A DNA stretch of 64,000 nucleotides. Origin: Botryobacter ruber. GTDB lineage: Bacteria; Bacteroidota; Bacteroidia; Cytophagales; Hymenobacteraceae. The notes under the pieces are model-generated. The model did not search any database. It had not been told where the DNA came from and saw nothing but the letters and a program-made list of their open reading frames with translations. The DNA is taken from contig NZ_QCZK02000041.1 in NCBI RefSeq assembly GCF_003347595.2, positions 186,001 to 250,000 of the forward strand, given 5' to 3'. How positions within the stretch are numbered: position 1 is the first letter of the stretch; every line of letters starts with the position of its first letter. The position numbers were made by a program, and so were the translations under genes. Positions 1,653 to 61,682 of this stretch are shown in pieces.

Positions 1653-1674
1653 CTGCACCTCCCTCCATAGCCAC
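1653..1674 (-). repeat. Decayed copy of the GTGGCTGTGGTGGCAGGTGC repeat
   Basis: CTGCACCTCCCTCCATAGCC resembles the repeat read on the minus strand. The TCCAT variant inside it is shared with the copy at 41336-41363. It is a degenerate neighbour of the clear copy 50 bp downstream. Confidence 0.45.
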
Positions 1675-1723
1675 ACCACAACAACTAACTCAGGATAAGC
1701 TATTTGCACGTAAAAAAAGTTTA

Positions 1724-1752
1724 CTGCACCTGCCACCACTGCCGCTGCTGCT
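1724..1752 (-). repeat. Interspersed repeat copy 1
   Basis: CTGCACCTGCCACCACTGCC followed by GCTGCTGCT, the repeat in minus orientation, preceded by an A-run plus GTTTA. It lies in the gap before the siderophore receptor, 37 bp upstream of that gene's -33 box. Confidence 0.85.
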
Positions 1753-1788
1753 ACCGTCTTTTTTAACAATAATTTTAACAGGTACCAT

Positions 1789-1818
1789 TTGCAAAATAAA
1801 ATCTGTCGCTTACCTTTG
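1789..1818 (+). promoter_or_regulatory. Bacteroidota-type promoter of the siderophore receptor
   Basis: TTG (1789-1791) and TACCTTTG (1811-1818) fit the Bacteroidota -33 TTG and -7 TAnnTTTG boxes with a 19-bp spacer, the usual distance. Transcription should start near 1824, about 47 bp before the ATG. Confidence 0.7.
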
Positions 1819-1824
1819 CCATTG

Positions 1825-1841
1825 TTTAGAATAAGTCTAAA
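1825..1841. promoter_or_regulatory. Candidate metal-repressor operator at the start site
   Basis: TTTAGA-N5-TCTAAA is a perfect 6-bp dyad exactly where transcription of the siderophore receptor should begin. A repressor bound there would block the promoter, as expected for iron control by a Fur- or DtxR-type regulator. Which regulator binds is inference. Confidence 0.5.
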
Positions 1842-1870
1842 TAAAAATAAACTTTTAAGACAAATTGTAT

Positions 1871-4213
1871 ATGAAAAAACTATGTACCCTTTTTGCGCTA
1901 CTGGTCCTTGTGCTGCAGGTGCAGGCCCAGACCGGAAACATCAAAGGCATTGTGCGGACATCGGACGGAGAACCTGCCGAGTTTGTAAACGTGGGCTTGA
2001 AAGGAACATCGCTCGGAGCCACCGCCGACAAAAACGGGAATTACCATTTTAAAAATATTCAGCCCGGCCGCTATACGCTGGTAGCAACGTTGGTGGGCCT
2101 GCAGCCACAGGAACAACTGGTGGTACTGCTGGCCAACGAAACACTGGAAGTTAATTTTACACTGCAGGAAACAGCCCAAAAGCTGCAGGAAGTGGTGATA
2201 TCAGCCAACTCGAACAAATACCGGCAGCCGAACCTCTCCTCTTCCCTCCGCCTCCGCACGCCTGTACTGGAAACACCCCAGAACATACAGGTGGTAACTA
2301 ATGCCGTGCTGGCCGACCAGCAGGTGTTCGACATGCTGGAAGGCGTAACCCGTAACGTAAGCGGTGTAACACGGCTGGAGCACTGGGACAACTATGCCCG
2401 CATCAACATGCGCGGTTCGCAGATTGCAGCTTTCCGTAACGGCATGAATGTGCAGATGCCCTGGGGGCCGCTGGCGGAAGACATGTCGGTAGTAGACCGG
2501 ATTGAATTTGTGAAAGGGCCGGCAGGTTTTATGATGGCGAACGGCGAACCCAGTGGTTTTTACAACATCGTTACGAAAAAACCGACAGGCCTTACCAAAG
2601 GCGAGGCAGCTTTTACCCTTGGCAGCTTCCAGACCTACCGCGCCACCCTGGACCTGGACGGAAAACTTTCTTCCAACGGCAAACTGCTCTACCGCCTCAA
2701 CCTGATGGGCCAGCAGAAAGGCTCACACCGCGACTACGAATACAACAACCGCTACACTGTGGCGCCGGTTCTTAAATACCTCTTCTCCGATAACACCTCC
2801 CTTACCGCCGAGTACACTTATCAGTTTTCTGAAATGTCGGCCATTGGCTCTAATTACGCTTTCTCCCCGAACGGCTACGCCGACCTTCCGCGTAACTTTA
2901 CCACGGCAGAGCCCACCCTGGCTCCTACCAAAATTCACGACCAGAGCATTTTTGTTACATTACAGCACCAACTGGACGAGGACTGGCAGATGACCGGCCA
3001 ACTGGCTTACCTCAACTACGACCAGGAAGGCAGTTCCCTCTGGCCAACTGCTTTTGATGAAGCTAAAACCGGCATCCTGAAGCGCGGCACCAGCATCTGG
3101 GATGCGCTGGGGCAGAGCAAACAGGGCCAGTTTTTTGTGAACGGCGAAGTAAAAACCGGTTTTATCACGCACCGCCTCCTGGCTGGCGTGGACATGTACC
3201 ACAAAGATTATTTTGCCGACTGGAGCCAGAGCTTTGAGCTGGTAGGCACCGAACCTTTTAACATCTACAACCCGGTTTATGGAAAAGTACCTGCCGCTTC
3301 GCTCCCTGTGTTCGACCGCTCCAGCGACCTCCGCAGCAGAGGCGTGCGCTATAACCAGGGCTCAGCAGGAATCTATGTGCAGGACGAACTGCGCATGTTC
3401 CAGGACCGCCTGCGCGTGACTTTAGCGGCAAGGCAAACGTCCGCCCAAACAGTTAACCCCTACTCCGGCATCACCAACGACAAGGCCTTTACGCCACGTG
3501 TTGGTGTGAGCTACTCTATAAATCCTGCCGTATCGGTGTATGGACTCTATGACCAGGCATTTGTACCGCAGGCAGGCGCGAACTTCGAAGGCAAATCATT
3601 CGACCCGATCACCGGAAGCAACACCGAAGCCGGTATTAAGAAAGACTGGTTCAACGGCACCTGGAATTCGACGCTGGCAGTATACCGCATCACCAAGAAC
3701 AACGTCCTGACGGCCGATCCGAACAATCCTAACTTCTCTATCCAGCTTGGTCAGACACAAACACAGGGTGCTGAGTTCGATGTGCGCGGGAATATTACGA
3801 AAGACCTGAACCTGATCTTCAACTATGCTTATACCGACTCCAAAATCTCCAAAGACACAAATCCGGACCGGGTAGGCACGGCACAACCCGGCATCTCCAA
3901 ACACATCTCCAACACCTGGCTGTCGTACCAGGTACCTTACGCACCGCTCAAAGGGCTTGGCTTATCGCTTGGGTACCAGTGGCAGAAAGACCGCTCTTCC
4001 TGGTATGTATTCGATGGTACCCAGAATTCTCTACCGGACTACTTCCGCCTGGATGGCGCCGTTACCTGGCAAAAAGACAAAGTACGGGTATCGCTGAACG
4101 TGAACAACCTGCTGGATGAGTACCTGTATTCCGGTGCTCCTTACGGTGAATACTTTTACTGGCAAACCGAAGCCGGACGCAATGCCCGCCTCAACGTAGC
4201 CTATAAATTCTAA
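1871..4213 (+). CDS. TonB-dependent siderophore receptor
   Basis: A 780-residue outer-membrane receptor that should import a ferric siderophore using TonB energy. A signal peptide (about 1-20, ending VQAQ) is followed by a carboxypeptidase-regulatory-like domain (about 22-105), then a plug (about 115-225) containing VDRIEFVKGPAGFMMANGEP and NIVTKKP, a signature of FhuA/FoxA-type siderophore receptors. The rest forms the barrel and ends in an aromatic residue (NVAYKF). ATG at 1871 is preferred over the TTG two codons upstream because it opens a normal signal peptide. The gene lies one base before a PepSY membrane protein and behind a promoter with a metal-repressor-like dyad, supporting iron uptake. 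The cognate siderophore cannot be told from sequence. Confidence 0.9.
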   Translation: MKKLCTLFALLVLVLQVQAQTGNIKGIVRTSDGEPAEFVNVGLKGTSLGATADKNGNYHFKNIQPGRYTLVATLVGLQPQEQLVVLLANETLEVNFTLQETAQKLQEVVISANSNKYRQPNLSSSLRLRTPVLETPQNIQVVTNAVLADQQVFDMLEGVTRNVSGVTRLEHWDNYARINMRGSQIAAFRNGMNVQMPWGPLAEDMSVVDRIEFVKGPAGFMMANGEPSGFYNIVTKKPTGLTKGEAAFTLGSFQTYRATLDLDGKLSSNGKLLYRLNLMGQQKGSHRDYEYNNRYTVAPVLKYLFSDNTSLTAEYTYQFSEMSAIGSNYAFSPNGYADLPRNFTTAEPTLAPTKIHDQSIFVTLQHQLDEDWQMTGQLAYLNYDQEGSSLWPTAFDEAKTGILKRGTSIWDALGQSKQGQFFVNGEVKTGFITHRLLAGVDMYHKDYFADWSQSFELVGTEPFNIYNPVYGKVPAASLPVFDRSSDLRSRGVRYNQGSAGIYVQDELRMFQDRLRVTLAARQTSAQTVNPYSGITNDKAFTPRVGVSYSINPAVSVYGLYDQAFVPQAGANFEGKSFDPITGSNTEAGIKKDWFNGTWNSTLAVYRITKNNVLTADPNNPNFSIQLGQTQTQGAEFDVRGNITKDLNLIFNYAYTDSKISKDTNPDRVGTAQPGISKHISNTWLSYQVPYAPLKGLGLSLGYQWQKDRSSWYVFDGTQNSLPDYFRLDGAVTWQKDKVRVSLNVNNLLDEYLYSGAPYGEYFYWQTEAGRNARLNVAYKF

Positions 4214-4214
4214 C

Positions 4215-5375
4215 ATGACAGGCAGAAACATCGCACGAAAACTACACCTCTGGCTCGGACTATTGTCCGGGCTGGTGGTGTTTATCATTTCCGTTACCGG
4301 CTGTATCTATGCCTTCCAGGCCGAACTCCAGGACCTCCTGCAGCCTTACCGCTTTGTGGCAGCACGCCAGGCGCCGCAGCTCCCGCCATCGCAGCTGCAG
4401 GCAAAGGCCGAAGAAGCTCTTCCGGGGAAACTGGTGCATGCCGTGTTGTATGCAGAGCCCGGCAGAGCGGCAGAAGTAATCTTCTACAGCTACGAGCCAA
4501 CCTACCACTATGTCGCCTACATAAATCCTTACACCGGGGAGGTGCAGCACATACAGGATGTAAAGAAGAGCTTTTTCGGGTTCATATTACAAGGGCATTT
4601 CTACCTCTGGCTGCCTCATGATATCGGGCAACCTGTGGTCGCGTCTGCCACGCTCGTATTTGTGGTGATGCTCCTGACAGGCATTATCCTCTGGTGGCCC
4701 CGCAACAAAAAGGGCACCCGGCAGCGCTTCACTATTAAGTGGAACGCCCGCTGGCGCCGCCGCAACTTCGACCTGCACAACGTGCTGGGCTTTTACGTGA
4801 GCGCGCTGGCCCTGCTGCTGGCGCTGACGGGGCTGGTATGGGGTTTCCGGTGGTTTGCGCAGGGCGTTTATGGCCTGGCCTCCGGCGGAAAAGAACTGCA
4901 GGAGTACCAGGAGCCGCCATCCGATACCACACAAGCAGCCACCATAGCCGCTGCACCTATCCTGGACCGGGTGTGGCACAAGATACAGGCCGAGCACCCG
5001 GGCGCGGCCGTAGTGGAAGTGCACCCGCCCCTAAACGAAAGCTCTTCCATTGCCGCCACCATCAACTACCACCCCGACACCTACCATAAAATCGACTACC
5101 GCTACTTCGACCAGTACACCATGCAGGAGCTGTCGGTGGATCATATCTGGGGCAGGTACCACGAAGCCACAGCAGCAGACAAACTGATGCGCATGAACTA
5201 CGACCTCCACACCGGCGCCATCCTGGGGCTGCCCGGAAAAATACTCGCTTTCCTGGCTAGCCTGCTGTGCGCCAGTCTACCGGTTACCGGCTTTTTTGTG
5301 TGGTGGGGACGCCGCAACAAGAAGCCGAACAAGCAAAAGCAAGCGGTCAGAAAACTGCAGCAAGCTTCCATATAA
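4215..5375 (+). CDS. PepSY-associated TM helix protein, iron-regulated type
   Basis: A 386-residue inner-membrane protein of the PepSY_TM family (PF03929), often encoded beside siderophore receptors, where some members reduce or release iron in the periplasm. Membrane segments are visible near residues 17-37 (WLGLLSGLVVFIISVTG), 135-158, 190-212 and 345-365. Histidines precede several of them (KLHLWLGL, DLHNVLGF, DLHTGAILG), as in the family. The C-terminus is short, basic and cytoplasmic. The ATG starts one base after the receptor stop, so the two are co-transcribed and probably translationally coupled. A strong terminator follows. Confidence 0.85.
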   Translation: MTGRNIARKLHLWLGLLSGLVVFIISVTGCIYAFQAELQDLLQPYRFVAARQAPQLPPSQLQAKAEEALPGKLVHAVLYAEPGRAAEVIFYSYEPTYHYVAYINPYTGEVQHIQDVKKSFFGFILQGHFYLWLPHDIGQPVVASATLVFVVMLLTGIILWWPRNKKGTRQRFTIKWNARWRRRNFDLHNVLGFYVSALALLLALTGLVWGFRWFAQGVYGLASGGKELQEYQEPPSDTTQAATIAAAPILDRVWHKIQAEHPGAAVVEVHPPLNESSSIAATINYHPDTYHKIDYRYFDQYTMQELSVDHIWGRYHEATAADKLMRMNYDLHTGAILGLPGKILAFLASLLCASLPVTGFFVWWGRRNKKPNKQKQAVRKLQQASI

Positions 5376-5393
5376 CAAAGCGTAAGCTTAAAC

Positions 5394-5438
5394 AAAAAAA
5401 CACAGCAGCCATAAGTTTTGGCTGCTGTGTTTTTTTTT
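5394..5438. terminator. Bidirectional terminator between convergent genes
   Basis: ACACAGCAGCC/GGCTGCTGTGT form an 11-bp stem with a 9-base loop, with seven A on the left and nine T on the right. It can end both the PepSY operon and the convergent minus-strand gene. Confidence 0.9.
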
Positions 5439-5465
5439 ACAGGCAAGGCGCCGGCTGTCGTTATG

Positions 5466-6086
5466 TTATGCCTTTGCCTTCTCGTACTTCCAGTTCCGCG
5501 ACTTCCCCTCCGCCAGCCACTCCAGCGCCGTAGCCATGCGCTTTTCGCGCGTGGCATCAGTTTTGGCTTCGGTTAGCCAGCTCACGTACTCTTTGCGGTG
5601 GCTGTAGCTGAAGTTTTCGAAAGCAGCCTTTGCCTGCCCGTTTTGCTCCAATGCCTCCTGGAAATACATCGGCACCACCAGCTCCTGCTTTGCACCCGCT
5701 TTGGCTTTTGAGGGAGCTTTTACATTGTCCTGGTTCAGCTTAACGGCTTCCGCAATGTACTGTAGCATGATTTCGTCGGAAGGCAGATCTGCCGGGCTTT
5801 TGAGCTGGCCCAGGTGCCCCATGGAAGCTCTGTCTGCTACCGCCAGCAACTGGTACGGGTCCGTAAGCAACGATGCTTTAAAGAAGGTGAAGGCGCAGTG
5901 TTTTTTAAAAGCGGCCATGCTGCACACAATCCCTTTGAACTCAAAATGCGGAAAGCCCCACTTGATGGTTTCGGTTATGTCGGGACAGGCCTGGTGCACC
6001 AACTGCCGCAGGTGGTGCAGGATAGGTTGGGCAAAGGGTTCAGCTTTTTCGATGTAGGCGGTTATGCGGGGGTCGGTGTTTTGCAT
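5466..6086 (-). CDS. YdeI/OmpD-associated family protein (DUF1801 plus OmdA)
   Basis: A 206-residue soluble protein with no signal peptide. The first half (about 10-115) is a DUF1801-like domain: an early DPRITAYIEKAEPFAQPIL helix, then ITETIKWGFPHFEFKGIVCSMAAFKKHCAF, the conserved heart of the fold. The second half (about 130-200) matches the YdeI/OmdA domain, with LEQNGQAKAAFENFSYSHRKEYVSWLTEAKTDATREKR. The family is common in Bacteroidota and has no firmly assigned biochemical role. Transcribed alone, converging on the PepSY operon. The fold assignment is secure by pattern; no function is claimed. Confidence 0.8.
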   Translation of the reverse strand: MQNTDPRITAYIEKAEPFAQPILHHLRQLVHQACPDITETIKWGFPHFEFKGIVCSMAAFKKHCAFTFFKASLLTDPYQLLAVADRASMGHLGQLKSPADLPSDEIMLQYIAEAVKLNQDNVKAPSKAKAGAKQELVVPMYFQEALEQNGQAKAAFENFSYSHRKEYVSWLTEAKTDATREKRMATALEWLAEGKSRNWKYEKAKA

Positions 6087-6283
6087 ATGGCTGCAGTTGT
6101 TACGTTTCTATTGATTTTAGAAAAGTATGCATTCCGGGGCAGAGTTGCAAGCTGCCTGAACCGTTGATTTTTGTCTGAATTTGGATTTGCCAGATGAAGG
6201 GATTAACAGGATGTTTCAGTTAATTTAGGAACAGGCACTGCCGCAAGTTTAGGCGCAGCCGTAACTTGTGGTAATCTATGGCA

Positions 6284-6300
6284 GGAAGTTTTCAACTTCC
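6284..6300. repeat. GTT-N3-AAC palindrome with GGAA arms (left)
   Basis: GGAAGTTTTCAACTTCC, a perfect 7-bp stem around TTC, at the inner end of the left arm of the composite inverted repeat. Confidence 0.75.
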
Positions 6301-6373
6301 GAAATCCACACACAAAATTAAATTTTAGTTTTACACCATTGCTGGCCCTGTTGCCTTTCCGTTTCTGGAACCC

Positions 6374-6390
6374 GGAAGTTGAAAACTTCC
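6374..6390. repeat. GTT-N3-AAC palindrome with GGAA arms (right)
   Basis: GGAAGTTGAAAACTTCC, the inverted partner of the palindrome at 6284-6300, with the centre GAA instead of TTC as expected for the opposite orientation. Confidence 0.75.
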
Positions 6391-9059: not shown

Positions 9060-9060
9060 C

Positions 9061-27055: not shown

Positions 27056-27637
27056 ATGGATTCCCTTACAAATTCTGCTGAGCCTGCATTTAACAATACC
27101 AACACGGAAGTTCTCTCGCTTGAGGAGCTTTTCCAGAAATACTATGCCCGCTTAGTACATTTTGCCTTCCAGTTCACCAACAGCAAAGAGAGTGCGGAGG
27201 ACTTCGCCCAGGACGCTTTTATCAAGTACTGGAATTTAAAAGACGAAATCGCTACTGACGAACGCGCCATAAAAAGCTTCCTGTACACTACGGTTAAAAA
27301 CGCCAGCCTGAACGCCATTCGCCACCTGAAAGTAGCCGAAAATTTCATGGCGCAATCCGGGTTTTCTGATATCGAAGAGGAAACCGTTGTGCACGCCATC
27401 ATCAAATCGGAGGTAATTGGTGAGCTTCACCGCGCTATCGAATCGCTGCCGGAAAGTTGTCAGATAGTATCTAAAATGGGCTTCCTGGAGGGCATGAAAA
27501 ACCATGAGATTGCGCAGGAATTAGGCGTTTCGATCAACACCGTTAAAACCCAGAAAAAACGAGGCCTGCAACTGCTCCGCTCCAGGCTCAGCCCCGAAAT
27601 CATTACCCTCTTGTTGCTGCTCCTGTCTGACCAATAA
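27056..27637 (+). CDS. ECF sigma factor, FecI-like Bacteroidota type
   Basis: A 193-residue sigma factor. Region 2 is seen as EELFQKYYARLVHFAFQFTNSKESAEDFAQDAFIKYWNLKDEI, and region 4 as AIESLPESCQIVSKMGFLEGMKNHEIAQELGVSINTVKTQKKRGLQLLRSRL. This is the group that partners with FecR anti-sigma factors and drives SusC/SusD loci. The next genes are exactly such a FecR and SusC/SusD pair, so it should be released when the TonB-linked receptor signals its substrate. The C-terminus ends in a very hydrophobic ITLLLLLLSDQ tail, common in this group. Confidence 0.93.
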   Translation: MDSLTNSAEPAFNNTNTEVLSLEELFQKYYARLVHFAFQFTNSKESAEDFAQDAFIKYWNLKDEIATDERAIKSFLYTTVKNASLNAIRHLKVAENFMAQSGFSDIEEETVVHAIIKSEVIGELHRAIESLPESCQIVSKMGFLEGMKNHEIAQELGVSINTVKTQKKRGLQLLRSRLSPEIITLLLLLLSDQ

Positions 27638-27768: not shown

Positions 27769-27799
27769 CTGCTGCTCCAGCCACCACACCCGCTGCTCC
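27769..27799 (-). repeat. Interspersed repeat copy 7
   Basis: CTGCTGCTCCAGCCACCACA followed by CCCGCTGCTCC, preceded by AGAAATT. A CGGTTCAGA motif like that of the composite inverted repeat abuts it on the left (27756-27764). Confidence 0.78.
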
Positions 27800-27874
27800 T
27801 GTCTGAACTTTGATTCTTACTTCTCTCTCTCCTCACATCCTTCAAATCAAAAAAATCACAGTCCGGAAAGCATT

Positions 27875-27903
27875 CTGCTCCTGCCACCATAGCCTCTGCT
27901 GCT
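27875..27903 (-). repeat. Interspersed repeat copy 8
   Basis: CTGCTCCTGCCACCATAGCC followed by TCTGCTGCT, 106 bp after copy 7 in the same orientation. Both copies lie in the 374-bp gap between the sigma and FecR genes, which otherwise holds only A/T-rich sequence. Confidence 0.8.
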
Positions 27904-47624: not shown

Positions 47625-47666
47625 TTCCCATCCCCTGTTCTTCTTTACTGGTTCCGGTTATATGTC

Positions 47667-47693
47667 AGCACCTGCCACCACAGCCACTGCTCC
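47667..47693 (-). repeat. Interspersed repeat copy 13
   Basis: AGCACCTGCCACCACAGCCA then CTGCTCC. It forms the left arm of a perfect 21-bp hairpin with copy 14. Confidence 0.92.
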
Positions 47694-47705
47694 AAATCAA
47701 ACAGG

Positions 47706-50214: not shown

Positions 50215-52101
50215 GTGAGAACCATTCTTTTCTGCTTCAGTATCTGCTGGCTGCTCCTGCTGTGGCCTGCCTGCGTGCGCACCTGCAGCGCCGGCACAGT
50301 ACCGCTTATCCGGCTGCACGACCAGGCGGAGCGCTATGCCTTGGGCAATCAGGTGGTGCTGCTCGAAGACGAAGCAGGTTCTCTTACTTTTCAGCAGGTG
50401 AAGGGTTTGCAGAATGCGTTTCAGAAAAGTTTGCAGGAGATCCCGGTGTATGGCCCTTCCTCTTCGGCGGTGTGGTGCATGTTCAGGGTGCAGAACAGGA
50501 GCCGGGAAGACAACTGGTACCTGGAAATCGGGAATTCCTACCTGAACCAGGTAGACCTGTACGAAGAAACGGAAGCAGGAAATTTCCGGGTAGTGAAGGG
50601 AGGAACAAACGAAGCTTTCCGGACACGGCACCTGAAAACGAACCGCATCATTCTGCCACTCCGCCTGCCACCGGGTACCGAACGCACCTATTATGTCCGC
50701 TTTCAGAGCAGGAGCATTTTACGTTTCCCGATCCAGGTTGCCACCATGCCGGCCCTGTACGAGAGCAACCACAGCTTCGACCTGGCTAATGGCATTTACT
50801 TCGGGCTGATGTTCTCGCTGGTCATCTTCAACCTGTTTGTCTACCTCTCGCTGCGCGATAAAGCTTACCTGTTTTACATCCTCTACATCCTGTGCCTGAC
50901 GCTGGATGTGGCCAGTGTCAGGGGATACCTGCTGGAGTGGCTCCCGGAGTCGCTGATGTGGCTTGTGACGAACCGGGTGTTTTCGGGCTTAACGATCTTT
51001 TTTGCGGTGCTTTTCACGAATGCTTTTCTGCAGGTAAAGAAGTTTATGCCGGGCCTGTACCCCTGGCGCAGGATTATTTACATTTCGGTGGCCGTCATTT
51101 TTGTACTGAGCCTGCTGCACCTTTACGTCTGGAGCTTTACCTGGATGCTGCTCACGTTTATCCCGACGTACATTTATATTTACAGTGCCGGCATAAAAAT
51201 ATACCGCAAGGGCTTCAAACCTGCCCTGTATTACACCATCGCTTTTGCCGCAGTAGGTATCGGGATTACAATTTATATCTTAAAAGACAACAACGTGCTG
51301 CCCGAAACGGCTTTTACGGAGGGGGCGCTGCAGCTGGGTTCCGTGATCGAAGCCATTGTGCTTTCTTTTGCCCTGGCCAGCAAGTTTAACTACTACCGCC
51401 GAGAAAAAAACCAGGCACAGGAACTGGCCATCCGGCAGGCTAACGCTTTTTCGCAGCAGCTCATCCAGTCGCAGGAGCACGAGCGAAAACGCATTGCAGC
51501 CGAACTCCACGACAGCGTGGGCCAGAGCCTGATCCTGATCAAAAACAAGGTACTCATGCTCCGGAAGCGTCTGGACGAACCTGCCAAAGTAAGCCAGCAC
51601 GCCGAGGACCTGACTGAAAGCGTAACCAACACGATAAATGAAATCCGGGCTATTTCCTATGCGCTCCGCCCCTTCCAGCTGGACATGCTGGGCCTGACGC
51701 AGTCCATACAAAGCCTGGCAGACGAAGTGGCCGAGGCAAGCGGCATAGCGGTAACAGTGGAGGCAGATAACGTGGACGGGCTCTTCCCGAAAAACGATGA
51801 GATTAACCTGTACCGCATTGTGCAGGAGTGCCTCAACAACATTGTTAAACATTCCGGCGCCACCCACGCCAGGCTCACCCTTACCCGTACCGAACAGGTA
51901 GTGCAGTTAATGATCGAAGACAATGGAAAGGGCATGCCCGCCGGTACCGGCAGTGTTCAAAAAAAGCAGGGCTTCGGACTGCTGGGCATCCAGGAGCGCA
52001 TCAACATACTGGCCGGTAACTGGCTTATCAAAGAAGCGGTGCCGCACGGTACCATCATTCATATTTCCATACCTATAGCTGTAGCACATGCAAACAATTA
52101 A
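50215..52101 (+). CDS. 7TMR-DISM sensor histidine kinase
   Basis: A 628-residue kinase using GTG 50215, which opens directly with a signal peptide (RTILFCFSICWLLLLWPACVRTCSA). A longer frame from 50107 would include repeat copy 15 and is rejected. The periplasmic 7TMR-DISMED2-like domain (about 30-170) is followed by seven membrane helices (about 180-375), then a HisKA_3 domain with ERKRIAAELHDSVGQSLILIKNK (His432) and an HATPase domain (EINLYRIVQECLNNIVKHSGATHARL, IEDNGKGMP, GFGLLGIQERI). It should phosphorylate the NarL-type regulator encoded next, whose gene overlaps it by 14 bp. The ligand may be a carbohydrate or other periplasmic signal. Confidence 0.88.
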   Translation: MRTILFCFSICWLLLLWPACVRTCSAGTVPLIRLHDQAERYALGNQVVLLEDEAGSLTFQQVKGLQNAFQKSLQEIPVYGPSSSAVWCMFRVQNRSREDNWYLEIGNSYLNQVDLYEETEAGNFRVVKGGTNEAFRTRHLKTNRIILPLRLPPGTERTYYVRFQSRSILRFPIQVATMPALYESNHSFDLANGIYFGLMFSLVIFNLFVYLSLRDKAYLFYILYILCLTLDVASVRGYLLEWLPESLMWLVTNRVFSGLTIFFAVLFTNAFLQVKKFMPGLYPWRRIIYISVAVIFVLSLLHLYVWSFTWMLLTFIPTYIYIYSAGIKIYRKGFKPALYYTIAFAAVGIGITIYILKDNNVLPETAFTEGALQLGSVIEAIVLSFALASKFNYYRREKNQAQELAIRQANAFSQQLIQSQEHERKRIAAELHDSVGQSLILIKNKVLMLRKRLDEPAKVSQHAEDLTESVTNTINEIRAISYALRPFQLDMLGLTQSIQSLADEVAEASGIAVTVEADNVDGLFPKNDEINLYRIVQECLNNIVKHSGATHARLTLTRTEQVVQLMIEDNGKGMPAGTGSVQKKQGFGLLGIQERINILAGNWLIKEAVPHGTIIHISIPIAVAHANN

Positions 52102-52741
52102 GATCCTCATTGCCGACGATCATCCCATCTTCCTGAAAGGGCTGAAAGAAGTTATCGAAATGGAAGAAGGTTTTCAGGTGGTGGCACAGGCGGTAAACGG
52201 GCAGGAGGCGGTGTATGCCCTCCAGACAAACCACGTAGATGTGGCCGTGCTCGATATTGATATGCCGCGCATGAATGGCCTGGAAGCAGCTGAAAAAATG
52301 TTACAGCACCAGCCACAACTGCCTATCCTGCTCCTGACCATGCACAAGGAACGGGCGCCCTTTATGAAAGCGCTGGAAATTGGCCTGGCGGGTTATGTAC
52401 TGAAGGAGAACGCGGTGAACGATGTGGTGAATGCCATTTACGCCGTAGTGGAGGGCGGCAACTACATCAGCCCCGACATGTCGGCGTACCTGCTGCGCAA
52501 GCCTGCCAAAACTGCTAAACCGACTCTGGTAGACGAGCTGCAGCTCCTCACGCCTGCCGAGCGGCAAATCCTGAAACTGATCGCCCTGTACAAGTCGAGC
52601 CGAGAGATTGCCGACGAACTATTTATCAGCGAAAAAACCGTTTCGAACCACCGCATGAACATCTCGAAAAAGCTCAGCCTGACCGGCAAGAACAGCCTGC
52701 TGCGTTTTGCCATCGAGCATGTGGGAACAGCAGGTATGTAA
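52088..52741 (+). CDS. NarL/FixJ-family response regulator
   Basis: A 217-residue DNA-binding regulator. The receiver domain (1-120) has the acidic pocket DDH (10-12), phosphoacceptor Asp56 in VLDIDMPRMNG, a Thr in LLLTMHK and a Lys in YVLKENA. The C-terminal LuxR-type helix-turn-helix (about 150-212) has LTPAERQILKLIALYKSSREIADELFISEKTVSNHRMNISKKLSL. It is the partner of the overlapping kinase. Its target site is unknown; the GGTAGTACTACC palindrome before the kinase and small barrel genes is a possible one. Confidence 0.95.
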   Translation: MQTIKILIADDHPIFLKGLKEVIEMEEGFQVVAQAVNGQEAVYALQTNHVDVAVLDIDMPRMNGLEAAEKMLQHQPQLPILLLTMHKERAPFMKALEIGLAGYVLKENAVNDVVNAIYAVVEGGNYISPDMSAYLLRKPAKTAKPTLVDELQLLTPAERQILKLIALYKSSREIADELFISEKTVSNHRMNISKKLSLTGKNSLLRFAIEHVGTAGM

Positions 52742-54461: not shown

Positions 54462-54558
54462 TTTTCTGGCAGGACACAAGCACAGCAAACTCACCTCAGC
54501 TAAAAACAAAAACCACTCTTCGCCAAGGTACCGAAACCACAAAACTTGTAACCATAAT

Positions 54559-54570
54559 CAGGTGCAGCAG
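54559..54570 (+). repeat. Fragment resembling the right end of the interspersed repeat
   Basis: CAGGTGCAGCAG, the last 12 bases of copies 15 and 18, without the GTGGCTGTGG part. It may be a decayed copy or chance. Confidence 0.3.
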
Positions 54571-54639
54571 TACACATAGTAGCAATTCCCTATATTCTTC
54601 CTTCCGGAAATTCAGCAAAAGCGTTACAAAAGCTAACCT

Positions 54640-55302
54640 ATGGCGGGATTCAGAAAACTCAAACGCTTCCTGTTCAGGCACAACCTCATCCCACCAAAAA
54701 AGTGGCGGCCTGCCGCTATCGTGGCTGTGGCTACCTTTGTGGGCCTGGGCTTGTATGTGGTAAAACTCAGCAACGCCGCTTCCTACCTTTCCGACGATCC
54801 GCAGGCCTGCGTAAACTGCCACCTCATGACGCCCCAGTACATTACCTGGAACCACAGCGCCCACCGCGAAGTAGCCAGCTGCAACGACTGCCACGTGCCA
54901 CACAACAATGTTTTTAATCAATATTATTTCAAAGCAAAAGATGGCTTGTACCATGCCTCCATCTTTACCTTAAGGGCTGAGCCGCAGGTGATACAAGCAA
55001 AAGCGCCTTCGGTAGAGGTAATACAGAATAACTGCATCCGCTGCCACGCGCAGCAGGTAACCGATGCCAGAATGGCCGGCTTTGTAGAAGATCATTACGA
55101 AAAAAGAACCGGCAGAACCTGCTGGGAATGTCACCGGGAGGTACCGCACGGAAGGGTGAAAAGCCTTTCTTCGGTTGGCCACCAGATAGAGCCCATCCGG
55201 GCGCATGCCCCGCCCGACCTGGAAATTGTACCCGCCTGGCTTAAAGCATCCATGGAAAAAAGTAAACAGAAAGCAGCAAAATCTAACAAAACAGCACCAT
55301 GA
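54640..55302 (+). CDS. nrfH: Cytochrome c nitrite reductase small subunit, quinol-oxidising (NrfH)
   Basis: A 220-residue NapC/NirT-family tetrahaem protein. One membrane anchor (about 25-45, AAIVAVATFVGLGLYVV) precedes four haem motifs: CVNCHLM (57-63), CNDCH (81-85), CIRCH (132-136) and CWECH (161-165). The Met after the first motif is typical of the NrfH haem near the quinol site. It takes electrons from menaquinol and passes them to NrfA, encoded next with a 4-bp overlap (ATGA). The C-terminus is Lys/Ala-rich. Confidence 0.95.
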   Translation: MAGFRKLKRFLFRHNLIPPKKWRPAAIVAVATFVGLGLYVVKLSNAASYLSDDPQACVNCHLMTPQYITWNHSAHREVASCNDCHVPHNNVFNQYYFKAKDGLYHASIFTLRAEPQVIQAKAPSVEVIQNNCIRCHAQQVTDARMAGFVEDHYEKRTGRTCWECHREVPHGRVKSLSSVGHQIEPIRAHAPPDLEIVPAWLKASMEKSKQKAAKSNKTAP

Positions 55303-56780
55303 AATACTGGATCCTCTTTATTGCAACCGTACTTGGCGTAGTTTTGCTAGCCATGCTGGTTTACTCCATCATGGACCGGAAAACGGAAGCACGCTTCGCC
55401 TACCAGCCCAAGGTAGAAATTGAAGGAATCGAGCCCCGGGATTCGCTCTGGGGACTGAATTACCCGCGCCAGTACCAGTCGTACCAGAAAACACAGGACA
55501 CCACGTTCAGCAGCAAATACAACACCAGCGGCTTCCGCGATGCCCTGGAAGAAAATCCGGAAACCATCATTCTCTGGGCAGGCTATGCCTTCAGCAAAGG
55601 CTACAACCAGCCGCGGGGCCACAACCACGCCGTACGCGATGTACTCAGTTCCGTGCGGATCGGCGCCCCCACAGAGGCAGGTACCGGTCCCATGCCCAGC
55701 ACCTGCTGGACCTGTAAAAGCCCTGATGTGCCCCGCCTGATGAGCGAGTTGGGTGTTGCAGACTTCTACAGCCATAAGCTTTCAGATTTCGGTGGCCAGG
55801 TGATCAACCCAATTGGCTGTGCCGACTGCCACAACCCCAAAACCATGAACCTGACCATTACAAGGCCAGCTTTGGTAGAAGCTTTTAAAGCCATGGGGCG
55901 TGACATCAACGAGGCTTCGCACCAGGAAATGCGCTCGCTTGTATGTGCGCAGTGCCACGTGGAGTACTACTTCAGTAAAACAAAACACGAAGGCGCCCAA
56001 TACCTTACCTTCCCCTGGCATAATGGCTTTACTGTAGAGGCCATGGAAGCCTACTACGACAGCATCGACTTTGCCGATTGGGTGCACCCGCTGAGCAAAG
56101 CCAGGATGCTGAAGGCACAGCACCCCGATTTCGAAATTTACACCTTTGGCGTGCATGCCGACCGCGGCATTTCCTGCGCCGACTGCCATATGCCTTACCG
56201 GACCGAAGGCGGCCAGAAATTTACAGACCACCACATCGGCTCGCCCCTCAGCAATGTAGAGAACTCCTGTTTTGTCTGCCACCGCGAAAAGGTATCGGAC
56301 CTGGTAAACGATGTGTATGAACGCCAGACGAAAGTAAAAGAAGCAACCGGCAGGCTGCAGCGGCACATTGCCATGGCCCACCTGGAGGCAGAGCAGGCCT
56401 GGAAACTCGGCGCTACAGAAGCCCAGATGAAAAACATCCTGCGGGGTATCCGCCTTGCCCAGTGGCGCTGGGATTATGTGGCAGCTTCGCACGGAGCAGG
56501 CTTTCACGCCCCCCTGGAATCGACCCGCATTGTGGCCTCGGGCTCTGCTATTATCCAGGAAGCGCGGGTAGAGCTGGCCCGGGTGCTGGCATCGCTGGGA
56601 CATAACAAACCCGTTCAAATGCCCGACCTCGACAGCAAGTCGGCGCTGCAGGCTTACATCGGCGTGGACCTGGAACAGGAAAAACGCGAGAAGGCAAAAT
56701 TCCTGGAACAGGTGGTGCCGCAGTGGCTGAAAGAAGGCAAAGCCCGCGAAGCAAAGCATAAGGTGAACATGATCAACTAA
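55299..56780 (+). CDS. nrfA: Ammonia-forming pentahaem cytochrome c nitrite reductase (NrfA)
   Basis: A 493-residue periplasmic enzyme reducing nitrite to ammonium. The active-site haem uses CWTCK (136-140) with Lys as ligand, and four CxxCH motifs follow at CADCH (174-178), CAQCH (216-220), CADCH (293-297) and CFVCH (324-328). Arg120 (SSVRIGAP), Tyr223 or Tyr224 after the third haem and His286 (FGVHADRG) match the catalytic Arg, Tyr and His. An N-terminal uncleaved-type signal or anchor (about 3-24) may keep it at the membrane with NrfH. The next gene encodes the haem-attachment protein, 54 bp away. Confidence 0.97.
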   Translation: MKYWILFIATVLGVVLLAMLVYSIMDRKTEARFAYQPKVEIEGIEPRDSLWGLNYPRQYQSYQKTQDTTFSSKYNTSGFRDALEENPETIILWAGYAFSKGYNQPRGHNHAVRDVLSSVRIGAPTEAGTGPMPSTCWTCKSPDVPRLMSELGVADFYSHKLSDFGGQVINPIGCADCHNPKTMNLTITRPALVEAFKAMGRDINEASHQEMRSLVCAQCHVEYYFSKTKHEGAQYLTFPWHNGFTVEAMEAYYDSIDFADWVHPLSKARMLKAQHPDFEIYTFGVHADRGISCADCHMPYRTEGGQKFTDHHIGSPLSNVENSCFVCHREKVSDLVNDVYERQTKVKEATGRLQRHIAMAHLEAEQAWKLGATEAQMKNILRGIRLAQWRWDYVAASHGAGFHAPLESTRIVASGSAIIQEARVELARVLASLGHNKPVQMPDLDSKSALQAYIGVDLEQEKREKAKFLEQVVPQWLKEGKAREAKHKVNMIN

Positions 56781-56834
56781 GTGCTTCTCAAAATCTCATC
56801 AGGATAAAAACACCCGACATTTTACAGTAGCAGT

Positions 56835-59800
56835 ATGACCTTCTTCAAACTTTTGCTTTCAACCAGGATAACCCTTGTTCTGCTGATTGCCTTTGCTGCT
56901 TCCATGGCTGCAGCCACCTTTATCGAAAATGACCACGGTACTGCCGTAGCCCGCGGGCTGGTGTACGAGGCCTGGTGGTTTGAACTGATCATATTGTGGC
57001 TGGCTATCAACTTCCTGAGCCACATCGGGCAGTACAAGCTCTTTCATAAAAACAGGTGGCCAATCGGCTTGTTTCATGTGGCATTTGTGATCATTATTGT
57101 GGGAGCGGGCGTTACGCGCTACTTCGGACGGGAAGGCATCATCCACATCCGGGAAGGGAAAGCCGAAAATACCTTCTACACCACCGCCCGCTACCTGCAA
57201 CTGAAACAGCATGGCAACGAAAGCGGCAAACAATTCGAGAAACCAGTCAACCTGATCAGCCACAACTTTAAGCCACAAACCACTACTGCCGGTTTTGAGG
57301 AGCAGGAGTTTAAGGTAACCTTCCAGGAACACATAACAGGAGCAAGAGAGGCAATGGTGGCAGGTGCAGAAACATTTTTAGACCTGGCAGTTGCCCTGGG
57401 CGGCGAACGGAAAGACGTCCTCATCACGCAGGGCGAAACTCTTCCAATGGGAAATATTTCGCTCGGAACGCAGCAGGAGGCTGAGCAGCCCGTAAAAATT
57501 TTCAAAACCGACAGCAGCTGGATGATACAGTCGGAACTGCACCTGCAGGTAATGGAAATGGCGACGCAGAAAATAGGCGTACTGCATGCCGGCGAAATAA
57601 AACCGCTGCAGCTGCGCACGCTCTACCAGTGGGAAGAAGGCGCCTTTTTGGTAAAAGCGATACATGAAAATGCGAAGCTGACATACCGGCCCGAGCAGGA
57701 CGAGAAGCTGGCCAAAAACCTGCCGGATGTGGTAAAGCTGAAAGTGAGCGACCAGCAGGACAAACCGGTAACGGAGCGTTATGTGAAACTGGCAAGCACC
57801 GACCCCACCTGGCACCCCTTCACCTACCAGGGAAAGCAGTATACCATAACCTACGGCCCGAAAGCTGAACAACTGCCCTTCCGCCTTCACCTGAAAAAGT
57901 TTGAACTGGAGCGCTACCCCGGCAGCCAGAGCCCCGCCAGCTACGCCAGCGAACTGAAAGTAATGGACGCCGGAAACGAATTCCCGTACCGGGTTTTCAT
58001 GAACAACGTGCTCGATTACAAAGGCTACCGCTTTTACCAGTCCTCCTACGACACCGACGAAAAAGGCACCATCCTGTCGGTAAACCAGGACAGGCCCGGC
58101 ACCTACCTCACCTACCTGGGCTACACGCTGCTGGCCCTGGGCATGTTCCTGACACTCTTTGCCAAAGGCAGTCGCTTCCGGATGCTCAACCGGAAAACGG
58201 GCGCCAGCCGCAAAAAGACGACAGCCACACAAGTTACGGCGATGCTGGCGCTTTGCCTCCTGGAGATACAGGCACAGGCACAACCGGAGGCAAGGCCTCT
58301 TGTGGTGCCCCAGGAAAAAGCAGCAGCCTATGGCAAACTGATCGTGCAGGACCTGGACGGGCGCTTGAAGCCGCTCAACACATTGGCCAACGAAATCCTG
58401 CGCAAACTCAACGGCAGGTCCACCATCACCCTTCCCGGCAATTCCGGCGAAGTAACGCTTTCCTCTGAGCAGTTCCTGCTGGCCGTACAACTCGACCCCA
58501 TTACGTTCAGCGGCCTGCCTGTCATCAAAATCGACAAGGAAAAATCACGAGAGGCTTTTGCAGCGATGGGCATTACGCCACGAGACCGGGTTAGCTTTAA
58601 AGACTTTATCAACGACGACGGTGACTACCTACTGCATGAGCTGGTGGAGGAGGCAAACAAACTGAAGCCTGCTGAACGGAACGAAGCGCACAAGGAGCTG
58701 CTGAAAACGGACGAGCGTTTCAATATTTTCTATGCCCTGCTTACCGGCGATTTCCTACGGATTTTCCCCAACAAGCACGATGAGAACAACACCTGGTTCA
58801 CGAGCCAGCAGTCGCAGCAGGGTTTTACAGAAGAAGATGCCCGGTTCGTAAAAAGTATCACCTCCATTTACCTGGCGGGGCTGCACAAAGGGTTGCAGAA
58901 TGGCGACTGGGCGCAGGCCGATGAGGCGCTGGCCTACATGCACCTTTTCCAGCAGCAAGCCGGCGTGAACGTATATCCCGAAGAAAACCTGGTCGAAGCC
59001 GAACTGCTCTACAACCGCCTAAACCTGGGCACCAACCTTTTCGGCCCCTTCTGGCTGACCGGCATTTTTATGCTGGTACTGGGGATTACTATGCTGTTTA
59101 AAGAGGCAAAGCCCGTGCAGTGGGCCTGGAATGCGGGCAAGGTACTTAGCTGGCTCGGTTTTGTTATCTTTACCTTCCACCTGTGCCTGCGCTGGTATAT
59201 CGCCAAACATCCGCCCTGGACCGATGGCTTCGAAATGCTGGTGTTTGTAGCCTGGGGTGTGCTGCTGTTTGGCCTGCTCTTTTCCGGCAAATCCAGGTTT
59301 ACCGTTCCGCTCGGGCTGTTATTTTCGGGCACGCTGCTGTTCGTCGGTTTCCTGGACTGGCTCAATCCCGAAATTACCAACCTGATGCCGGTGCTGCATT
59401 CTTACTGGCTGAAGATTCATGTAGCAATTATCGTAAGCTCGTATGCCCCACTGGCGCTGGCGGCCGTGCTGGCCTTGCTGAGTTTGCTCTTCATCATTTT
59501 CAAGCCGTCTTCGCCTAAAGCCACCTGGTGGGCGAGCATGCAGGAACTTACCGTCGTAAACGAGCTAGCTGTTACCATCGGGCTGTTTCTGCTGACCATC
59601 GGCACGTTCCTGGGAGGCGTGTGGGCTAACGAAAGCTGGGGGCGCTACTGGGCCTGGGACCCAAAGGAAACCTGGGCGCTGATCTCCATTATCGTCTACG
59701 CCTTTGTGCTGCACCTGCGCCTGATTCCGGCCCTGAAGAATGCCTTCGTCTACAACCTTGCCAGCCTGTGGGCATTTTCGGCCATCATCATGACTTCGTT

Positions 59801-59969
59801 TGGGGTGAACTACTACCTATCGGGGCTGCACTCCTATGCCGCCGGCGACCCGGTGCCGGTGCCGGTCTGGGTGTATTGGGTAGTGGCGTTGCTGCTGCTC
59901 GTTTCGGCGCTGGCTTTTCTGCAGTACCGGAAAATGAATCAGGAGGAAAAGAAGGAACTGATGGGCTAA
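56835..59969 (+). CDS. ccsBA: Fused cytochrome c biogenesis protein CcsBA (ResB-CcsA)
   Basis: A 1044-residue inner-membrane protein of the system II haem-attachment pathway. The ResB/CcsB half (about 1-470) begins with [61 protein letters not shown] and has a final helix near 425-445 ([16 protein letters not shown]). The CcsA half (about 735-1044) carries the haem-handling [11 protein letters not shown] motif (935-945) in [22 protein letters not shown]. Between them, about 490-735, lies an extra exported domain ([23 protein letters not shown]). It serves the haem-rich NrfH and NrfA just upstream. Residues 169-180 are encoded by a stretch like the interspersed repeat. Confidence 0.93.
   Translation: [1044 protein letters not shown]
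57340..57371 (+). repeat. Repeat-like stretch inside ccsBA
   Basis: GAGCAAGAGAGGCAATGGTGGCAGGTGCAG with following AAACA shows the TGGTGGCAGGTGCAG half exactly and the left half poorly. It is in frame and encodes [13 protein letters not shown]. It may be a captured copy or chance. Confidence 0.35.
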
Positions 59970-60009
59970 TAGGCAAACTGAGTATCCAGGACCTATGAAA
60001 AAAAGCGAT

Positions 60010-60040
60010 AGCACCTGCCACCACAGCCTTACCTGCTGCT
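60010..60040 (-). repeat. Interspersed repeat copy 17
   Basis: AGCACCTGCCACCACAGCCT then TACCTGCTGCT; the right part is altered (TTACC). It lies 40 bp after the ccsBA stop codon. Confidence 0.8.
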
Positions 60041-60118
60041 AATCGAGCCAGTGCAATCAGCTGATACCAATATCAGTTGATTTGTACGCTATACATTTAC
60101 ATATTCTGTCCCCGGTCT

Positions 60119-60141
60119 GGGTGTAGTTTTTAACTACACCC
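60119..60141. repeat. GGGTGTAGTT/AACTACACCC palindrome
   Basis: A perfect 10-bp stem with loop TTT. The centre GTT-N3-AAC is the same as in the palindromes at 6284, 6374, 9921 and 9968. Confidence 0.75.
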
Positions 60142-60211
60142 ACCTATCCTGTACAGCAGCAAATGTCACAAACCAAGACATCAGCACCGGTCTCCTCAGA
60201 AGTAAAATTTT

Positions 60212-60233
60212 GGTGTAGCTTAAATACTACACC
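60212..60233. repeat. GGTGTAG/CTACACC palindrome
   Basis: A 7-bp stem around CTTAAATA, 70 bp after the palindrome at 60119-60141 and sharing its arm sequence. Confidence 0.65.
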
Positions 60234-60540
60234 CAGCTACTCCTGGCAATGGACTTTCCGGAAAGTTATGGTATTGTCTATACTCCCTGTTCAAATATAC
60301 TATATCTAACTAAAACATTATTATAATACAACACATTTCATGTTAAATACTAACCGTGGAACATTTCCCAATTTTGGTGTGTTAACAATGAGATTCAGCA
60401 ATAGCACAATAAAAAGAATTCCATATAACGACACTAATCTTTCGCTCATGACAGGCTCCACCCCCTTCTGAGCTTTCAATCCTGACATTTATTTCCAGGC
60501 GATGCAAACAAACTTAATTTCAACTTTAGCCAACACAAAG

Positions 60541-61545
60541 ATGAATTTCAATTTCCGTAACGTAGTTGTACCTGTTCTTTTAGGCTTGGCAGTGGTGGCC
60601 TGCGATAAAAAAGACATGGAAGAAATAGCTCCTGAAGCTGCCATCAGCGCGCAATCAACAAGTTTAGCCACATCCGCCCAGCTTATTTTTGAAGAAACAG
60701 CCGAAGGCAGCACTTTTTTTCCGCTCTCAGGGGCTACGCTTAACAAAACCCACGGGATAGAAAACTGCGGCCTCGACTGGACTTTAGCATCCGTAACAAG
60801 TCCTGCACGGGAGCATGAGAAAGCGATCCGTTTTGAAATCAGGAAAGGGCAGCCGTTGGTAGGTTCAAGCGGGAAAATCCGTTCCGAGGTTACGGTGATC
60901 AAAGGCTCCTCCGACGACAGGTTCTCCAAAGATATCTGGTATTCGTTCTCGGTTTATTTCCCCTCTGTTGGTTTTGAATATGATGATGAAAGAGACTGCC
61001 TGATCCAGTGGTACGAAGACGGAAGCGATGAGACGACCATCCGTGCCGAGAACAACAAAGTCTACCTGGAGGTAACACCTGCCAACGACTCAACGGAACA
61101 AAAAACCTACGACCTGTTCAGCTCGAACACCGCCCTGAACTCCAAGTCAAAAAGCCTTGCAGCTTTTTCTGACATACCGAAAGATCAGTGGAATGAGTTT
61201 GTGTTCCATTTTGTGCACTCCACCGGTTCCGACGGTTTGATTGAAGTCTGGCGTAACGGGGTAAAAATTCACCACATCACCGGGCGAAACATGCACCTGA
61301 AATATCCGAAATGGAAAATGGGCCTTTATAAGTCATCGTTCCTGGCCGGCTCTTCCCCCCTTTCTTCCAGGGTAATTTATTTTGACAACATCCGGGTAGG
61401 CAAACCTACTGCCACGCTGGCCGACATGTCATCCGGGATAGCAACTGGTACTACCACTGTTACGCTTGCCGATACAACCGCTACGACAGCAACCGAACCG
61501 GAACGGGTTACAAGTACGGACACGACCAGTACAACCTCATTTTAA
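60541..61545 (+). CDS. Polysaccharide lyase-like lipoprotein (PF14099 type)
   Basis: A 334-residue protein from ATG 60541, which yields a lipoprotein signal (PVLLGLAVVAC, Cys21); an earlier ATG at 60502 only adds a polar N-terminus. The beta-jelly-roll domain (about 40-270) has KAIRFEIRKGQPLVGSSGKIRSEV, KDIWYSFSVYFPSVGFEYDDERDCLIQWYED and WNEFVFHFVHSTGSDGLIEVWRNGVKIHHITGRNMHLKYPKWKMGLYKSS, typical of the PF14099 lyase fold used on glucuronan, heparinoids or alginate-like polymers. The last 60 residues are a Thr-rich tail without a sorting motif. A terminator follows directly. Confidence 0.75.
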   Translation: MNFNFRNVVVPVLLGLAVVACDKKDMEEIAPEAAISAQSTSLATSAQLIFEETAEGSTFFPLSGATLNKTHGIENCGLDWTLASVTSPAREHEKAIRFEIRKGQPLVGSSGKIRSEVTVIKGSSDDRFSKDIWYSFSVYFPSVGFEYDDERDCLIQWYEDGSDETTIRAENNKVYLEVTPANDSTEQKTYDLFSSNTALNSKSKSLAAFSDIPKDQWNEFVFHFVHSTGSDGLIEVWRNGVKIHHITGRNMHLKYPKWKMGLYKSSFLAGSSPLSSRVIYFDNIRVGKPTATLADMSSGIATGTTTVTLADTTATTATEPERVTSTDTTSTTSF

Positions 61546-61551
61546 ATAATC

Positions 61552-61588
61552 AAAAGCCGCTCTGCTAAAAAGGAGCGGCTTTTCTTTT
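61552..61588 (+). terminator. Rho-independent terminator
   Basis: AAAAGCCGCTC pairs with GAGCGGCTTTT (11 bp) across a 10-base loop, followed by CTTTT, 7 bp after the stop codon. Confidence 0.88.
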
Positions 61589-61651
61589 GCTTTTCAACGA
61601 ACCGAACACTTCAACTATACCAACTGGTAAAAAGATGTTACCAAAAATAGA

Positions 61652-61682
61652 ACAGCAGCGGCTGTGGTGGCAGGTGCAGCAA
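61652..61682 (+). repeat. Interspersed repeat copy 18
   Basis: ACAGCAGCGGCTGTGGTGGC followed by AGGTGCAGCAA, in the gap between the lyase and the GH43 gene. An open frame reads it as EQQRLWWQVQQNK. Confidence 0.88.

Follow-up and report, generated by a model that had tools for sequence, protein, structure and literature searches.

Many copies of one short directional motif are found in genomes with the DNA uptake sequences (DUS) of Neisseriaceae or the uptake signal sequences (USS) of Pasteurellaceae, which act as genome-wide 'self' labels. As set out in the portions of PMC2397512 available to us, the spacing of DUS and USS is tied to conversion tracts, the motifs are missing from recently acquired genes and, within core genes, lie where the site is permissive, many new DUS are too diverged from their homologues to be explained by point mutation, and inverted pairs serve as terminators. 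DUS dialects have been reported (PMC3630211, in its accessible part), and the sections of PMC7811141 at hand describe A/T tracts beside the core of the Haemophilus influenzae USS as well as close pairs, with 23% within 100 bp in one strain. A second system of relevance is the DNA gyrase motif of Escherichia coli, which according to excerpts of PMC6379681 consists of a central part (-16 to 19) and two arms of 47 bp with a GC periodicity of 10.75 bp. Here we describe a 33 bp element, called the mark in the following, that is repeated throughout a stretch of 64,000 nucleotides of the Botryobacter ruber genome (the window; positions 186001-250000 of contig C36 in this assembly of 62 contigs and 5.84 Mb). 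The marks resemble DUS and USS in being a directional motif of about two thousand copies (extrapolated) and mostly intergenic, in forming inverted pairs at gene ends with fairly even spacing, in being absent from two low-GC stretches and confined to one lineage, and in occupying variable coding sites without length change, with an A/T tract beside the core. We tentatively read them, with a chance that we put slightly below even, as protein-bound, DNA-bending, species-specific self-marks that behave like DNA uptake sequences.

Copies in the window, the genome and its relatives

Copies were scored with a 39-column matrix built on this genome, that is, trained on the same sequence that it scanned, with the reversed matrix and related genomes as controls. 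The initial annotation had reported a dense family of short repeats in the window and had named a frequency equal to that of shuffled sequence as grounds for abandoning it; with up to three mismatches, the 20-base core matches the window 18 times, far above the mean of 0 in 100 dinucleotide shuffles. The 18 copies it had called clear were all recovered where it had placed them, nine on each strand, with matrix scores of 34.2-54.5 bits, and its decayed copy at 1653 was confirmed as a weak one (28.1 bits), while a possible 12-base fragment at 54559 is absent among the matrix matches above 16 bits. It had overlooked a strong copy at 57348-57367 (45.7 bits), in frame inside an open reading frame (ORF) of 1,044 aa, and three weaker matches at 52306 (31.0 bits, in another gene), 4932 (23.3 bits, coding) and 63593 (23.6 bits). 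The copies are listed here by position in the window, strand and score.

1649..1681, minus strand: weak (decayed) copy, next copy 71 bp away; 28.1 bits, 3 core mismatches
1720..1752, minus strand: copy; 54.5 bits
9761..9793, plus strand: copy with exact core; 50.4 bits
15830..15862, plus strand: copy with exact core; 42.7 bits
16763..16795, minus strand: copy; 45.2 bits
19665..19697, plus strand: copy; 49.0 bits
21789..21821, plus strand: copy with CTGCTGC right side; 53.3 bits
27768..27800, minus strand: copy paired with 27871..27903, 103 bp start to start; 51.0 bits
27871..27903, minus strand: copy; 46.8 bits
37126..37158, plus strand: copy with CTGCTGC right side; 36.3 bits
38916..38948, minus strand: copy; 51.0 bits
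41332..41364, minus strand: copy; 46.5 bits
44603..44635, plus strand: copy with exact core; 51.2 bits
47662..47694, minus strand: copy with exact core, in a divergent (-+) pair whose starts are 42 bp apart; 41.5 bits
47703..47735, plus strand: second copy of the divergent pair with 47662..47694, exact core; 34.7 bits
50111..50143, plus strand: copy with exact core; 42.4 bits
52300..52332, minus strand: weak copy within gene 52088-52741; 31.0 bits
53409..53441, minus strand: copy with exact core; 51.7 bits
57341..57373, plus strand: copy within ORF 56835-59969, in frame, length equal to congener G028; 45.7 bits, ungapped alignment
60005..60037, minus strand: copy; 34.2 bits
61651..61683, plus strand: copy; 52.3 bits

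The string GCTGCTCCTGTCTGA occurs twice in the window. At 27792 it makes up the left edge of a mark, and at 27616 it lies where a predicted gene ends, with no core beside it.

The search of the whole genome and of its relatives that the initial annotation had proposed gives 978 core matches with up to three mismatches in the 5.84 Mb (484 forward, 494 reverse; 3 for the pattern read backwards) and between 0 and 12 in each of 149 other genomes of the family, 133 of which have at least one. The matrix finds 451 matches in 1.25 Mb and its reversed form one. This sample consists of parts of five contigs picked by size and matches, is thus non-random, and is slightly richer in matches with up to three mismatches than the whole genome (190 against 167 per Mb); extrapolation gives about 1,850-2,100 copies per genome. 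For 49 congeners, the core matches sum to 138, slightly above the 75 of the reversed control, with the highest counts in G028 and G127 (12 each against 4 in the control). Above 16 bits, the matrix has two matches in 570 kb of nine congeners, both in G028, and in G028 and G127 a DNA query with the cysC-cysQ region matches the element in three short pieces (83-93% over 28-46 bp). A few related sequences thus exist in these two genomes. Exact matches are absent for a 28-base version in 84,980 species genomes and for a 26-base version in IMG/VR, with records at or near the window's own possibly excluded in both cases. A motif of this kind in Bacteroidota was not found in the literature searched by title, a search whose coverage ended before subscription papers and preprints.

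Other repeats accompany the mark in this genome and in its congeners. G028 (contigs C66 and C12) and G127 carry another dense dispersed repeat, AATTATTCTAATSAAAA followed by GGCCYTCCGGAG (AATTATTCTAAT...GGCCYTCCGGAG), which has 104 matches in 283 kb of G028, or about 2,100 per genome by extrapolation, and none in the 1.25 Mb of this genome or in samples of 40-60 kb from seven other congeners. In G028, CTG repeats often come after it, and in G127 CAAGGGT; the repeat resembles the mark in density and in the CTG triplets alongside it in G028, but differs in its unrelated letters and unphased flanks. Two candidates for an in-place origin of this repeat within open frames of G028 gave no usable alignment. 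A hairpin family, GTAGGGGTTGAAGATTTTCAACCCCTAC, which may be a REP (repetitive extragenic palindromic) sequence of the GTAG type, lies at 739-830 of the window and in other gaps, beside AGTTAGAGAG/AGTTTGGGAG minisatellites, and a further family, CGCGTCTCCTGCACGAACC, is intergenic on C7, C17 and C36, where 171 kb of gaps contain about 12-14 copies. In the congeners G083 and G105, overlapping overrepresented 13-mers, for example ACGATCAACTAATAACG in G083, suggest local tandem arrays.

Anatomy of the unit and helical phasing

The conserved unit extends from -6 to +26 counted from the first core base, reads AG[G/C]AGCAG[A/C/T]GGCTGTGGTGGCAGGTGCAG[C/A]A[G/A]A and is directional, with about 33 conserved columns and about 40 bits per site. 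It is followed by a tract at +28 to +32 that had been taken for a T-run 3' of the core and is really an A/T tract, since positions 29-32 are either T-rich or A-rich. A single base is found in at least 95% of matches at positions -2, 4, 8, 9, 10, 12, 16, 19 and 20. At positions -4, -3, -1, 0, 5, 6, 15, 17 and 21, on the other hand, the commonest alternative is not a transition but the complementary base (A<->T, C<->G), which is not the pattern expected of neutral decay. The core consensus has no self-complementary stem by inspection, with no folding run. A G-quadruplex was ruled out because 35% of matches have C at position 17, which belongs to the fourth GG run, and a small ORF or peptide made from GNN triplets was discarded as well, the copies lying in both orientations and being mostly non-coding.

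The suggestion that the family has at least two subtypes could not be upheld, as no clean subtypes emerge. The variable columns form 210 pairs, and among 332 intergenic matches 30 of these pairs show linkage with z above 4, of which 16 are no more than two columns apart; for pairs separated by more than two columns, the mean z is 0.84, with 14 above 4. Because the variable columns are only weakly linked, the variation is closer to that of binding sites than to that of mobile-element subfamilies. This and the preference for complementary bases at nine positions count against an element of the REP type or of the MITE (miniature inverted-repeat transposable element) type, placed in gaps by RAYT or another transposase and kept out of genes by selection against coding insertions, an explanation that we consider improbable. 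A slight excess of near-identical copies (6.4% against 3.1% of pairs within 4 differences) speaks in its favour.

Close pairs of copies, 25-110 bp apart in the 1.25 Mb, lie at multiples of about 10.3 bp. Their start-to-start distances are 31-33, 39-43, 49-53, 59-63, 70-73, 82-84, 90-95 and 100-104 bp, with 78 as the one exception, and 81 pairs at a 20-bit cut give a vector length of 0.735 at 10.4 bp (Rayleigh p about 1e-19); the test takes pairs as independent, and adjacent pairs only give R=0.73 with n=80. The three close pairs of the window, 71, 103 and 42 bp apart, fall within this series, so the statement that the copies have no periodic spacing does not hold for close pairs. Between 110 and 260 bp, no phasing is seen (22 pairs, R=0.17). 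All four orientation classes are mostly on the same series of about 10.3 bp, three of them with few pairs, and as the sequences between the copies of +- pairs look unrelated, these pairs seem to be separate events.

The same helical repeat is found in the DNA flanking single copies. Downstream of 175 intergenic copies that stand isolated, A/T content rises and falls with a period of 10.45 bp as far as about +115. Its peaks lie near +30, +41, +51, +62, +73, +83, +93 and +104, and the power at 10.3 bp is 4.5-4.6, where 200 random sets reach 2.6 at most. A weaker oscillation extends upstream of these copies to about -62 (power 2.8-3.1 against maxima of 1.9-2.6), with peaks near -11, -22, -31, -41, -52 and -62; peak positions in both arms were read by eye. 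The positions of the core that are mostly A/T, namely 0, 11 and 21, fit the same series. As the flanks of the unrelated dense repeat of G028 (103 copies) lack a 10.4 bp phasing, the method does not itself create it. From these patterns we infer a protein that would wrap or sharply bend about 150-180 bp.

The main rival to the self-mark reading, in our view unlikely but to be taken seriously, holds that a protein which wraps DNA docks at the marks, either one of the nucleoid, for instance a histone-like protein, or a topology enzyme, for instance DNA gyrase. Here, the GC-rich core would nucleate and the phased A/T arms would wrap, so that the chromosome is organised and supercoils are absorbed at gene ends. 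Several features agree with this: the A/T phasing of 10.45 bp on either side of a centre of about 35 bp resembles the E. coli gyrase motif with its A/T-G/C periodic arms of about 10.5 bp, and pairs of all four orientation classes share mostly one series. As an analogy, the phased arms fit the description of the gyrase motif better than that of DUS or USS. In contrast to the E. coli sites, the core of the mark is highly specific, its right arm is longer, and it is restricted to this species despite a conserved GyrA. In this genome GyrA is ordinary (859 aa), being 87-90% identical to that of three congeners with 0-12 core matches, a comparison made for GyrA alone, and GyrA by itself cannot explain a species-specific core of 40 bits; each of 14 genomes has two genes with PF00521. 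If the wrapper were a conserved housekeeping protein, related motifs should, moreover, be present in congeners, where only the two matches in 570 kb of nine genomes are found, and the preference of gyrase is reported as degenerate in the part of PMC6379681 consulted, against about 40 bits here.

Placement between genes and origin of the copies

Genes were called with our own hexamer caller, by which about 79% of the sequence is coding. The claim that all copies lie between genes holds for the 18 that had been listed but not for the family as a whole, for which coding copies exist: in 850 kb, 149 of 167 copies with up to three mismatches are intergenic, 16 are coding and 2 lie at edges, and 92 of the 451 matrix matches in 1.25 Mb are within predicted genes. 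A role as protein- or nucleoid-binding sites kept out of coding DNA, also proposed initially, is supported indirectly by this intergenic majority together with the phased pairs and A/T arms.

In the 850 kb, density is highest in convergent gaps, at 2.0 copies per kb, against 0.69-0.75 in co-directional and 0.58 in divergent ones. Copies of at least 34 bits occupy 72 of 151 convergent gaps, compared with 40 of 151 divergent gaps and 131 of 614 co-directional ones. Inverted +- pairs are at convergent ends in 22 of 41 cases. Positive supercoils collect between convergent genes, and the density there is a further point for a wrapping enzyme, shared with E. coli gyrase sites. Copies after stop codons, of which there are many, could also belong to an element acting in RNA, as a terminator, mRNA end or riboregulator; the A/T tract 3' of the core is in line with this, and inverted pairs could form long hairpins. 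Yet the tract can be rich in either T or A, the two orientations are nearly balanced in co-directional gaps (44 same, 36 opposite), copies also lie in divergent gaps and antisense in genes, an Rfam search of the window gives no match, and helical phasing is a property of the duplex, so we regard an RNA-level element as extremely improbable. With an A or T tract and both orientations, the unit does not fit an intrinsic terminator, which has a hairpin followed by a T-run on the transcribed strand; inverted pairs may still terminate.

Spacing was compared with random placement at the same coding share (500 simulations) after merging copies less than 300 bp apart. With contig C31 set aside, the copies are more regular than random, with a coefficient of variation of 0.66 at the 34-bit and 0.68 at the 28-bit cut against 0.94+-0.06 (0 of 500 simulations); with C31 included, they are regular at the 34-bit cut (P=0.01). 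Fairly even spacing would suit a Chi-like recombination signal or another sequence-specific DNA system, for instance one read by a phage- or plasmid-borne recogniser, and the GT-rich core resembles the letters of E. coli Chi. A site of 33 bp that is mostly intergenic, has phased arms and shows little correlation between orientation and GC skew (r=0.11, 345 copies) makes such a system very improbable.

Three stretches above 12 kb are free of copies, two of them of low GC: 48 kb at C31:131431-179714 (46% GC) and 18 kb on C36 (42% GC). Genes in the C31 stretch look transposase- and mobilisation-like by eye, with no family search, and it encodes a protein of 2,334 aa with a signal-peptide-like start.

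Coding copies favour one reading phase on either strand (71 of 92 in 1.25 Mb) and allow a comparison with orthologues. Seven, picked for clustering or shared regions, were tried and six could be aligned, while C17:94924 gave no alignment; two weaker matches in one of the tested genes, C17:87820 and C17:88710 (21 and 28 bits), remained outside the test. An inserted element of 27-33 bp would add 9-11 residues, and none of the six shows an insertion of that size. The copy at 57348 of the window aligns with G028 at equal length and without gaps, reading RQEFEPGNETYFD in G028 and REAMVAGAETFLD here, the G127 alignment ending before the site. The copy at C17:127590 lies in a signal peptide and has one extra residue in an alignment with 29 congeners, with a gap of 2 residues nearby relative to G028 and G127. 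C58:34497 and C17:89248 each align gap-free with 12 congeners at the site, and C58:37607 (12 congeners) and C17:92473 (2 congeners) have gaps of 1-4 residues nearby. All sit, by eye, at variable protein sites. As no element-sized length change occurs in the six alignments, the coding copies were, to judge by these sequences, apparently written into existing DNA rather than inserted. The window shares a block at 54628-59964 with G028 and G127 (about 75% identity), and the rest of it matches the compared stretches of these genomes (140 and 30 kb) in one further piece of 99 bp only.

These alignments argue against the mobile, REP/RAYT-type origin favoured by the initial annotation, and the search for a RAYT gene that it had recommended found no consistent association: two of the three RAYT-like genes lack a copy within 1.5 kb. 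The third (C46:5177-5386), which has an internal TGA, lies between two inverted copies of the mark, a point for mobility; it adjoins GC-rich palindromes, seen by eye, that are apparently its own. RAYT numbers do not track the repeat (3 here, 1-7 in nine congeners), and a RAYT link was ruled out after the search of the genome and these nine congeners. The marks are nonetheless similar to REP sequences and BIMEs (bacterial interspersed mosaic elements) with RAYT in being short, high-copy, extragenic, present in convergent gaps and arranged as inverted dimers, and GTAG/CGTC REPs are reported from convergent and co-directional gaps, often as inverted dimers, in the accessible part of PMC3733652. 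Even strands, intergenic excess, restriction to one lineage and the presence of other REP-like families in the genome would likewise suit a mobile element, as would a cysC-cysQ gap longer than that of most relatives. Against this, the core is non-palindromic by eye, and outside the mosaics described next, the 167 copies have no shared flanks by eye. A self-BLAST of the 850 kb for empty sites in duplicated DNA gave only low-scoring or mosaic cases and was uninformative.

The mosaics are arrays of TAATCC/AAATCA-rich units on C17, C36 and C7 that end in TTCAGACAAA, for example at C17:57300 and C17:316700. Exact TTCAGACAAA sites number 50 in 850 kb, one of them in a predicted gene, and a mark follows 15-18 bp downstream in the same direction at 8 of the 50. 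Copies inside these mosaics have flanks in common, a further point for a mobile element.

Possible self-marks and the problem of their recognition

Read as self-marks, the copies would be recognition sites of a species-specific DNA-bending protein, would act as genome-wide 'self' labels like DNA uptake sequences, and would have spread through homologous-recombination exchange and not by transposition. With less certainty than the wrapping, the bending protein would recognise self DNA in natural transformation, and biased uptake together with recombination would have driven the copies to roughly 1,850-2,100 per genome. About 40 bits per site far exceeds what rarity needs, which suggests drive rather than simple selection for binding.

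Several observations weigh against self-marks of the uptake type. The arms of 31 copies deep in genes are not significantly periodic (P=0.06-0.14), spacing is not significantly regular at the 28-bit cut when C31 is kept (P=0.13), and the third copy-free stretch, 13.7 kb on C7, has normal GC (51%). The in-place origin is seen at coding copies only; the cysC-cysQ gap, with an intergenic copy, is 121 bp long against a median of 41 bp (range 9-311) in 15 relatives, and the shared flanks in repeated mosaics mean that copies there were copied along with their surroundings. Compared with DUS and USS, whose cores measure 9-12 bp in the parts of the sources available, the mark is long (33 bp, about 40 bits), and phased arms of about 10.4 bp extending over 150+ bp are not reported around DUS or USS in the literature searched. 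With the marks nearly absent in congeners, a 'dialect' would have to change completely between species. Finally, and again in difference to DUS and USS, the ATPase of type IV pili and of the type II secretion system (T2SS), PF00437, exceeds the cut-off in none of 14 genomes, a search that did not include pilins and secretin; all 14 have weak partial matches below it. A receptor of the known DUS/USS type is therefore unlikely.

In the accessible part of PMC8459023, Riemerella, also of the Bacteroidota, is described as competent with ComEC, DprA, ComF, RecA and envelope proteins that lack known competence homologues. An uptake sequence from Bacteroidota was not found in the literature searched. 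The most complete version of the self-mark reading would be an independently evolved Bacteroidota mark, in which biased exchange rewrites, in place and at about two thousand loci, the core of a wrapping site of about 180 bp that is read by a DNA-bending envelope or nucleoid protein, with sister species carrying unrelated marks; taken as a whole, we hold this to be distinctly doubtful.

Whichever protein reads them, the in-place origin of the coding copies argues against the easy label of a 'short mobile repeat', and the number and regularity of the sites make the question of drive versus selection directly testable. If they are wrapping sites, the sequence by itself would reveal a chromosome-wide wrapping pattern in the detail of single helical turns, and the sites could serve as bait for the protein. 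If they are self-marks of the uptake type, they would be, by the literature searched, the first from bacteria other than Neisseriaceae and Pasteurellaceae, and also the first whose arms are helically phased, and competence-linked sequence marks would then exist in a further phylum, via a machinery without a recognisable type IV pilus ATPase.

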